From assembly GCF_031191545.1 (NCBI RefSeq), contig NZ_CP133472.1, positions 2,046,001-2,110,000 of the forward strand: DNA of 64,000 nucleotides. Direction: 5' to 3'. This document shows, piece after piece, positions 8,596-38,739 of this stretch. The position numbers and the translations under genes were made by a program. Origin of the DNA: Schaalia odontolytica. Lineage in GTDB: Bacteria; Actinomycetota; Actinomycetes; Actinomycetales; Actinomycetaceae. Within the stretch, counting starts at the first letter, position 1. Each line of letters starts with the position of its first letter. The notes beneath the pieces were generated by a model that was not told the DNA's origin, made no database searches, and saw only the letters and a program-made list of their open reading frames with translations.

Positions 8596-9276
8596 TCAGA
8601 GTGAGCGGATGACGGTGACGACCTTGCCGAGGATGGTAGCCTCGTCGCCCGGGATCGGTGAGTAGTCCGGGTTGTGCGGAAGAAGCCAGACGTGTCCACC
8701 CGTCACCGATAGCTCCTTGACCGTGGCTTCTCCGTCGATCATGGCGGCCACGAACTCGCCGTTGCGGGCCTCATTCTGCGAGCGGATCACGACGTAGTCT
8801 CCGTCAAAGATTCCGGCGTCGATCATAGACTCGCCGCTGACCTCGAGCATGAAGAGATCACCGTGGCCGGTCATGGAGGTCGGCAGTCGGAAAACGTCCT
8901 CCACATGCTGCTCGGCGGTGATGGGGGTGCCGGCAGCGATGCGGCCGACGAGCGGAATTGCCGTGCCGTCTTCCTCCACGTGTGAGATGGGGACCTCGAT
9001 GCGGACGACCTTTTCCGAGGCCTGCGCGAAGGAGGGGAGATGAAGCTCCGTGCGCGCACGATCGGTCAAGTCCAGGGCGCGAGGCAATCCGGGCTCGCGC
9101 ACCAGATACCCGTGCGCCTCAAGCGCGTCGAGATGGTGCTTGACCGTCGATGGTGATGCCAATCCGACCGCGGATGCGATCTCGCGCACAGAGGGTGGAA
9201 AGCCGCTGGAGGCCAGTTTTTCGTTGATGACTCGCAAGATCGCACGGTGTCGATCACTCAGCGAACGCTCGGTCAT
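8596..9276 (-). CDS. lexA: SOS repressor LexA
   Basis: LexA represses DNA-damage genes and cleaves itself when RecA is activated. The 226-residue protein has an N-terminal winged helix (residues about 5-70, with PPSVREIASAVGLASPSTVKHHL as recognition region), the scissile Ala115-Gly116 bond in GRIAAGTPI, nucleophile Ser150 in GESMIDAGIF and Lys187 in EATVKEL. The start at 9276 has GAAGGAG about 7 bases upstream. A LexA box lies at 9364-9379, so autorepression is likely. A 13-codon upstream ORF overlaps its start codon. The divergent LysM gene and nrdR give the same neighbourhood as lexA in mycobacteria. Confidence 0.97.
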   Translation of the reverse strand: MTERSLSDRHRAILRVINEKLASSGFPPSVREIASAVGLASPSTVKHHLDALEAHGYLVREPGLPRALDLTDRARTELHLPSFAQASEKVVRIEVPISHVEEDGTAIPLVGRIAAGTPITAEQHVEDVFRLPTSMTGHGDLFMLEVSGESMIDAGIFDGDYVVIRSQNEARNGEFVAAMIDGEATVKELSVTGGHVWLLPHNPDYSPIPGDEATILGKVVTVIRSL

Positions 9277-9363: not shown

Positions 9364-9379
9364 TGAAACATATGTTCGA
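9364..9379. promoter_or_regulatory. LexA box 1 (lexA side)
   Basis: TGAAACATATGTTCGA differs by one half-site base from the actinobacterial SOS palindrome CGAAC-N4-GTTCG. It overlaps a possible lexA -35 region, so it probably mediates autorepression. Confidence 0.7.
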
Positions 9380-9386
9380 GTGTGCC

Positions 9387-31233: not shown

Positions 31234-32476
31234 GCGCGGGTGGCACATCCCGACGGTCACGCTGCCTCGGATCCGCTTCGGGTCCGGAAAGGAGCGTCAG
31301 CATGATCCGGTGATGACGTACTATCTCGTCGTCCTGCCGGCCGTTGTGCTCTCGGTTTTCGGCCTCGTGATGGGCTTTTCGGCGCAAACTGTCACGTCGA
31401 TCGCGCAGGGAGAGAATCCCTATTCTGCGTACGCTCGCCCCCTGGCTATCATCGTGGTTTCCCTGCTGATTGCTACGGTCGTTCAGCTGGTTCCCCAACG
31501 ATGGTTCGTCTATCTGTCGCCGATAATGTTCGTGGGCGCTCTTGTCTTCCAGTCGCTGGTTCTGAGCCCCCTCGGACGCTCTGAGGGTGGCAACGCAAAC
31601 TGGGTCAAGATCGGCCCGATCATGGCCCAGCCCTCGGAGTTCCTCAAGCTCGCCCTTATCGTGTTCCTGGCACTGATGGTCTCAAAGTCGGCCTCGAAGC
31701 GCTCGGATCTGCGCGCGATGGCTGTGGCCGTGGGAATGCCTATCCTCGTCGCTCTGGGAGCAGTCATGCTCGGACGTGACATGGGCACTGCGATGGTGGT
31801 CGCGGTGGGTGCTCTGGGTGCCGTGTGGGTGGCCGGCCTGCCCAAGCGCTGGTTTGGTGGCCTCCTCATGATCGCCGTGCCCACGATGGTGCTGCTCGTG
31901 CTGTCCAACCCCACTCGTATTCGCCGTATCCTCGCTATCTTGCCGGGTACGTCGAAGGGATCGGACGAGTCCGCTCCCGAGCAGATCGACCACTCGCTGT
32001 GGGCGCTGGGCTCGGGCGGCCTGACCGGCCTCGGCCCGGGCGCGTCGCGTGAGAAGTGGAATTATCTGCAGGCGGCCCACACGGACTTCATTTTCGCTAT
32101 CGTGGGCGAGGAATTCGGGCTGTTCGGTACCCTCGCTGTCCTGGTCTGCCTGGGGCTGCTGGTGTGGGGCATGATACGCGTGGCGCGCGAGTCTTCGGAC
32201 CTGTTTGTCGTCGTCGTTGCGTCGGGCGTTGCGTCGTGGATCGGCATCCAGACGATCATCAACGTGCTGTCGGTGACGGGGCTGGGTCCGGTCATCGGTG
32301 TTCCTCTGCCGCTCGTGTCCTACGGTGGCTCGTCCTTCCTCTTTACGATCACCGCGATCGCGGTCGTGGCGTCCTTTGCGCGCGCCCGAGCCGGGATGCG
32401 GATGATTGGTCGGCCCGACGAGGCATCGGCGGGGCGTGACCCCCGCGTGGCACCCCGCAGGCGCGCGGCTCGCTAA
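31223..32476 (+). CDS. ftsW: Septal peptidoglycan polymerase FtsW
   Basis: FtsW is the SEDS-family glycosyltransferase that works with FtsI. The 417-residue protein has about ten membrane helices, with GNANWVKIGPIMAQPSEFLK, the catalytic-type loop around KWNYLQAAHTDFIFAIVGEEFG and GVPLPLVSYGGSSF. Tandem GTG codons at 31220 and 31223 are possible starts; GGGGGAG is spaced 8 bases from the second. Either way it overlaps murD. The C-terminal 40 residues are basic and extended. In some actinobacteria such tails bind FtsZ; here that is only a possibility. Confidence 0.96.
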   Translation: MTNKRGWHIPTVTLPRIRFGSGKERQHDPVMTYYLVVLPAVVLSVFGLVMGFSAQTVTSIAQGENPYSAYARPLAIIVVSLLIATVVQLVPQRWFVYLSPIMFVGALVFQSLVLSPLGRSEGGNANWVKIGPIMAQPSEFLKLALIVFLALMVSKSASKRSDLRAMAVAVGMPILVALGAVMLGRDMGTAMVVAVGALGAVWVAGLPKRWFGGLLMIAVPTMVLLVLSNPTRIRRILAILPGTSKGSDESAPEQIDHSLWALGSGGLTGLGPGASREKWNYLQAAHTDFIFAIVGEEFGLFGTLAVLVCLGLLVWGMIRVARESSDLFVVVVASGVASWIGIQTIINVLSVTGLGPVIGVPLPLVSYGGSSFLFTITAIAVVASFARARAGMRMIGRPDEASAGRDPRVAPRRRAAR

Positions 32477-32479
32477 ACT
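32474..32479 (+). promoter_or_regulatory. Internal -10 before murG
   Basis: TAAACT overlaps the ftsW stop codon and is followed by 6 bases and then an ATG (32486) that opens a three-codon ORF. The spacing equals that of the leaderless genes in this window. Confidence 0.45.
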
Positions 32480-36057: not shown

Positions 36058-36079
36058 TCAACCTTCAACTAAAGGTTGA
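36058..36079 (+). promoter_or_regulatory. 8-bp inverted repeat in the ftsZ leader
   Basis: TCAACCTT (36058-36065) and AAGGTTGA (36072-36079) are perfect inverted copies around CAACTA. They could form a small leader hairpin or an operator just downstream of the ftsZ promoter. Confidence 0.45.
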
Positions 36080-36086
36080 GGGTCTG

Positions 36087-36107
36087 ATGCAAGGGAGACA
36101 TCCATGA
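36087..36107 (+). other. Short upstream ORF overlapping the ftsZ start
   Basis: An ATG at 36087 opens a six-codon frame (MQGRHP) whose TGA overlaps the ftsZ ATG as ATGA. The ftsZ ribosome-binding site AAGGGAG is inside it. Confidence 0.35.
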
Positions 36108-38109: not shown

Positions 38110-38251
38110 CTTCTTCTCGCGTGCGCGTTTGTCCGGTGCGCGTTCTTCACCGTGCCCCGACCTCGGCGATGGACGGGCGCGTGATAAGGGTCGCCGGTGC
38201 CCTCCTCGCGACGCGCCGAGCGCCCTGCGGTGCGATTCCGCCGGGTAACTG

Positions 38252-38257
38252 TAGCTT
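38252..38257 (+). promoter_or_regulatory. Leaderless-type -10 before sepF
   Basis: TAGCTT, 6 bases, then an ATG at 38264 that starts a short ORF rather than sepF itself. No good -35 is seen at 16-18 bases. Confidence 0.5.
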
Positions 38258-38263
38258 GTGGCT

Positions 38264-38290
38264 ATGCATCGGCTGAAGGAGGAACAATGA
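38264..38290 (+). other. Leader ORF coupled to sepF
   Basis: ATG at 38264 opens an eight-codon frame (MHRLKEEQ) whose TGA overlaps the sepF ATG as ATGA. Codons AAG GAG GAA also form the sepF Shine-Dalgarno sequence GAAGGAGG. The -10 TAGCTT is placed so that the mRNA would begin at this ATG. Confidence 0.5.
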
Positions 38291-38739
38291 GCGAGTCGTT
38301 CGGTGCACGCGCACGTAAGTTCATGGGCTGGTACTCACCGGAGGAGCCCATCGATGAATTCGATGAATTCGACGAGGTGGAAGAGGTAGCACCCGTGGCC
38401 GACATTACTCCCGTGTCCCGTCCGACCCTGACGAGCATCCGCCGCGAAGAGCCGGTCGAGGATCTCACGCGCATCGTGACGATCCACCCCACCGCATACT
38501 CCGACGCGGTGACAATCGGCGAGGCGTTCCGCGATGGTACGCCCGTCATCATCAACCTCACGGACATGGGCGAGGAAGAGGCTCGTCGTCTCGTGGACTT
38601 CGCCGCCGGCCTGACCTTCGGCCTCCACGGCGTGATCGAGCGCGTGACCAGCCGCGTGTTCCTCCTGTCTCCGGCTTCGGTTGAGGTCCAGGGGGACAAC
38701 ATGTCGGGCCGTCGCGGCTCCTTGTACAACCAGGGTTGA
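38287..38739 (+). CDS. sepF: Cell division protein SepF
   Basis: SepF anchors FtsZ to the membrane in bacteria without FtsA. The 150-residue protein has an N-terminal amphipathic helix ([13 protein letters not shown]), an acidic linker ([12 protein letters not shown]) and the SepF core from [19 protein letters not shown] to [11 protein letters not shown]. Length is typical. The ATG at 38287 has GAAGGAGG 4-5 bases away and overlaps a leader ORF. YggS, normally between pgeF and sepF, is absent; the 177-base gap carries a promoter instead. Confidence 0.96.

Follow-up and report, generated by a model that had tools for sequence, protein, structure and literature searches.

Promoter and short leader of sepF in Schaalia odontolytica: an eight-codon leaderless frame that is probably incidental

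In Schaalia odontolytica, the mRNA of the division gene sepF likely arises from a conserved promoter that provides it with a short leader, in which the ATG found as first codon would be incidental and the frame that it opens dispensable for sepF. According to this interpretation, drawn from the upstream sequence and its relatives, a −10 element of the TANNNT type would start the sepF mRNA at about position 38264 of the window (the whole stretch of 64,000 nucleotides analysed here, from a source genome of 2.46 Mb in one contig), and sepF would be translated canonically from a 23-nt leader with a strong Shine-Dalgarno (SD) sequence. Within the S. odontolytica/georgiae clade, this mRNA would happen to begin with ATG, and the leader would thereby double as a leaderless frame of eight codons ending at the sepF start codon. 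Translation of this frame may occur at some level, presumably as an incidental and functionless event, and sepF probably has no need of it.

Leaderless small ORFs whose stop overlaps the start of the following gene in an RTGA have already been described in mycobacteria, where a role in ribosome delivery was suggested, and an RTG at the +1 position was found to be necessary and sufficient for leaderless initiation in M. smegmatis (Shell et al. 2015, PMC4633059). A review from 2025 takes up the same idea of ribosome delivery by coupled leaders (PMC12548453). If functional, the sepF leader could be regarded as one more case from another actinobacterial family, bringing an oral actinobacterium and a division gene into a group known from mycobacteria.

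The sepF upstream region

The sequence-only reading, which described a TAGCTT-N6-ATG arrangement, the peptide MHRLKEEQ, an in-frame SD and a TGA overlapping the sepF start, proved exact to the base (whole junction, TAGCTT-gtggct-ATGCATCGGCTGAAGGAGGAACAATGA; Table 1). The leader ATG lies 23 nt from the sepF ATG, so the leader frame ends on the TGA of the shared ATGA. The identity of the downstream gene was given by its Pfam match (E 9.6e-25), and the eight codons of the leader fall within the 5-50 codon size of the small ORFs of Shell et al. (2015). An Rfam search of the window gave no match. Moreover, the leader RNA folded no better than shuffled versions (z +1.25 and +0.16), with the SD in the loop of a 47-nt fold, which argues that no ribosome would be required to open it; a structured leader of this kind was rejected on these folding values. 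Farther upstream there is a box with variants at a comparable site (GCGACATGCCG in many genus members, CGACACGCCG in some family members), which had 11 matches in the genome versus 5 with the reversed control.

Table 1. Positions, in the window, of features upstream of sepF, murG, ftsZ and lexA
Feature	Position	Strand	Remarks
Box GCGACGCGCCGAG	38208-38220	+	about 80 nt 5' of sepF; the preferred explanation works without it
sepF −10 element TAGCTT (TANNNT type)	38252-38257	+	from sequence; same place in 34/34 genus members
Spacer gtggct	38258-38263	+	separates TAGCTT from leader ATG
Leader ATG	38264-38266	+
Inferred +1	38264	+	6 nt past −10, the spacing at which leaderless genes of the source genome start; A in 30/34 genus members
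Leader frame ATG CAT CGG CTG AAG GAG GAA CAA TGA (MHRLKEEQ)	38264-38290	+	8 codons; NTGA overlap with sepF
sepF SD AAGGAGGA	38276-38283	+	inside leader frame; SD-like purine run also in relatives
ATGA overlap	38287-38290	+	TGA 38288-38290 shares bases with sepF ATG 38287-38289
sepF	38287-38739	+	150 aa; PF04472
murG TAAACT	32474-32479		followed by ggggtt
murG leader ATG	32486		opens 3-codon frame MHA
AACCTTCAACTAAAGGTTGAGGGTC	36060-36084		5' of ftsZ
ftsZ leader MQGRHP	from 36087		TGA overlaps ftsZ ATG at 36104
lexA leader MHICVHPDAKEKP	from 9314	−	13-codon frame; TGA overlaps lexA ATG at 9276
CGAACATATGTTTC	9365-9380	−	palindromic; 5' of lexA

Conservation in the genus and family

A sepF match was obtained in 34 of the 35 genomes of the genus set (Schaalia/Pauljensenia, Actinomycetaceae), and their upstream regions were oriented and tabulated. 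Every one of the 34 keeps the TANNNT element before sepF and an SD-like run, with leaders of 23-31 nt from an inferred +1 that is mostly A, and all three frames are represented among them. An ATG at this +1 occurs in only 10 of the 34, the triplets elsewhere being AGC, AGG, ATC, ACC, TGC and more. These ten genomes hold four distinct leaders, one common to seven of them plus those of G196, G042 and G198, and they are restricted to a single clade of 12 genomes in a tree of MurG and FtsZ (support 99/94), on which the +1 ATG needs two changes. Two clade members read AAG (G150) and ATA (G114) at +1, both with promoter and SD intact, and a stop overlapping the sepF start is kept in all 12. Outside this pattern, the leader frame of most relatives overruns the sepF start or ends early. 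In 16 regions taken 5' of sepF in further genera of the family, no ATG leader of this type was seen; a TAGCGT-like element is frequent 5' of sepF in these regions, farther off and with variable spacing, and comparable −10-like elements exist in much of the family set. Two records titled Xylanimonas cellulosilytica 352_XCEL (L034) and Sanguibacter keddieii 250_SKED (L036) encode a sepF 96% identical to the present one, which suggests that they are Schaalia sequences under wrong names.

The −10 element, the leader and the SD are thus kept while the +1 ATG varies, so what precedes sepF resembles the usual short leader of an mRNA, one that happens to begin with ATG. The features of an ordinary promoter with a short SD leader, that is, a −10 element, a purine at +1, an SD and a short spacing conserved in orthologues, were all found, and the sepF region shares with such actinobacterial promoters the TANNNT element, the A at +1, the 23-nt leader, AAGGAGGA and genus-wide conservation, differing from them in the ATG that forms the +1 triplet in the clade. 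On the other hand, the architecture is neither kept across species nor over-represented in the 864-kb genome sample, as would have supported, without strictly defining, membership in the class of Shell et al. (2015). A conserved leader design does not agree with an ATG in 10 of 34 genomes, with AAG and ATA in two close relatives and with leaders in all frames; a leader frame lacking conservation is what the sequence-only reading itself had named as grounds for its rejection. Two points weigh against the incidental reading: the overlapping stop is retained by all 12 clade members, and 7 of them, with near-identical genomes, share one leader, which leaves no way to show that selection is lacking among those seven.

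Leaderless starts, chance rates and the claimed parallels

Genome statistics were obtained from 864 kb (forty stretches of 20 kb, L073-L112, plus the window), approximately one third of the genome, with a simple gene caller. This caller slightly favours leaderless starts, and the leaderless signal was consequently recounted on the 182 genes for which only one RTG start is possible; TANNNT lies exactly six bases upstream of it in 18 of them, versus about 1 at other offsets. Leaderless genes appear to be common in the source genome. Together with a promoter that would set +1 at the leader ATG, this makes leaderless translation of the leader possible; provided that this start is correct, the sufficiency of RTG at +1 in M. 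smegmatis suggests that the leader is probably translated, perhaps with some effect. To this extent the sequence-only reading is partly supported.

Among the 294 leadered genes of the sample, an ATG follows TANNNT in 4 and 3 cases at offsets 6 and 7, versus 0-6 elsewhere, which is no enrichment, and an A follows it in 64 and 76 cases at the same offsets versus about 50, a start-point-like signal. The 124 promoters scored with a matrix gave a similar picture for ATG at the inferred +1 (3 and 2 versus 1.8). The only one of the 294 that is both leaderless by spacing and NTGA-coupled is sepF itself, in a count from which murG was left out because its intergenic gap is short. Moreover, an ATG-started upstream frame with NTGA coupling within 75 nt was observed in 27 of the 120 leadered genes of NTGA type, versus 21.1 (sd 3.6) after shuffling, so junctions such as those of ftsZ and lexA are close to the chance rate. 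The case serves as a caution: with a fixed spacing between −10 and +1 some leadered mRNAs will start with ATG by chance, and a short SD leader before an ATGA then mimics a designed coupled ORF.

Repeats were also observed in the genome. One of them, with GCGACACGCCG units, occupies the middle of three loci (L175, L179 and L181), and in the first two it reads CATTAGA..CC-GCGACACGCCGACGACACGCCG-...-TTCTAATG, with inverted ends. A second family, GGGCTTCGAGGCGACGCGCCGAGC...GCGCGGACGG...GCGGGCGGGC, occurs at four places of the genome, also mid-locus (L177, L178, L180 and L184).

A shared set of leaderless-coupled division and SOS genes, for which murG, ftsZ and lexA had been put forward as sepF-like, was rejected because the murG and ftsZ junctions are not conserved in relatives and a −10 element is missing at the lexA leader ATG in the source genome. 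In the case of murG, the MHA frame ends 11 nt short of the gene, which precludes start coupling, and the leader ATG was present in 1 of 30 loci, that of the source genome, the locus of G085 reading TAAACT-ggggct-ACG. For ftsZ, no TANNNT was found 6-7 nt upstream of the leader ATG; this ATG also occurs in close relatives, and its combination with NTGA coupling was seen only in the source genome. The coupling is missing in the nearest relatives because their codon 2 is GCG (ATGGCG) and coupling requires the A of ATGACG. As for lexA, the leader ATG of the source genome has no −10 element at the expected spacing, and a −10-like TATCCT would set +1 well upstream of it.

The AACCTTCAACTAAAGGTTGAGGGTC sequence upstream of ftsZ, with comparable sequence throughout the genus, closely resembles the C. 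glutamicum ftsZ site of FtsR, a MerR-type activator, which is AACCCTAAAGTAAAGGTTGAGGGTA (PMC6683498). The palindrome upstream of lexA resembles the actinobacterial SOS/LexA box and would fit autoregulation, as expected.

Alternative readings of the leader

The best placed of the alternatives, which we nevertheless consider unlikely, is a functional coupled ORF: a ribosome would load at the 5' ATG, translate the eight codons and re-initiate through the ATGA, raising the output of sepF. The exact geometry at 38252-38290 speaks for it, as does an architecture of the same class as the RTGA-coupled small ORFs of mycobacteria (PMC4633059), with which the sepF leader shares an RTG at the inferred +1, a short frame, a TGA/start overlap and a peptide sequence that is apparently irrelevant. 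Leaderless initiation is common in the genome, and the leader is retained in 10 of the 12 clade members with an overlap that varies among ATGA, TGATG and TAATG. However, the sepF leader differs from those ORFs in having only eight codons, with the downstream SD inside the frame, and in being limited to one clade. The ATGA overlap is also like that of NTGA (−4) translational coupling (PMC12548453), although the upstream frame is here a tiny leader instead of a gene, and the coupling is putative. Against such a function we find that G150 and G114 lack the ATG yet keep promoter and SD, that neither the remaining 22 genus members nor the family set has it, that a strong SD already precedes sepF, and that leaders of this type are not enriched in the 864-kb sample. 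That the clade leader delivers ribosomes through the stop-start overlap in order for SepF synthesis to continue while 30S-dependent initiation is restricted, we regard as very improbable.

Quite improbable too would be an opposite effect, in which a 70S ribosome bound to the 5' ATG masks the SD, competes with canonical initiation and mildly lowers sepF expression. The SD starts 12 nt from the leader ATG, a distance at which, from the size of the ribosome footprint, both initiations could hardly take place together; but the +1 ATG lacks conservation, and ribosomes arriving through the coupled frame could offset the loss.

Finally, it is highly improbable that the true 5' end lies elsewhere, by read-through from the upstream gene or from another start, leaving the leader ATG as merely an out-of-frame one: the sepF promoter comes only 152nd of 173 when scored with a matrix built from leaderless genes, and it is absent from a generic sigma-70 scan list, and the literature search gave no start-site map for the Schaalia/Actinomyces group, nor one for sepF among the titles and abstracts on leaderless initiation and sepF, but the TANNNT element at the sepF position in every genus member, mostly with A at +1, argues for the conserved promoter.
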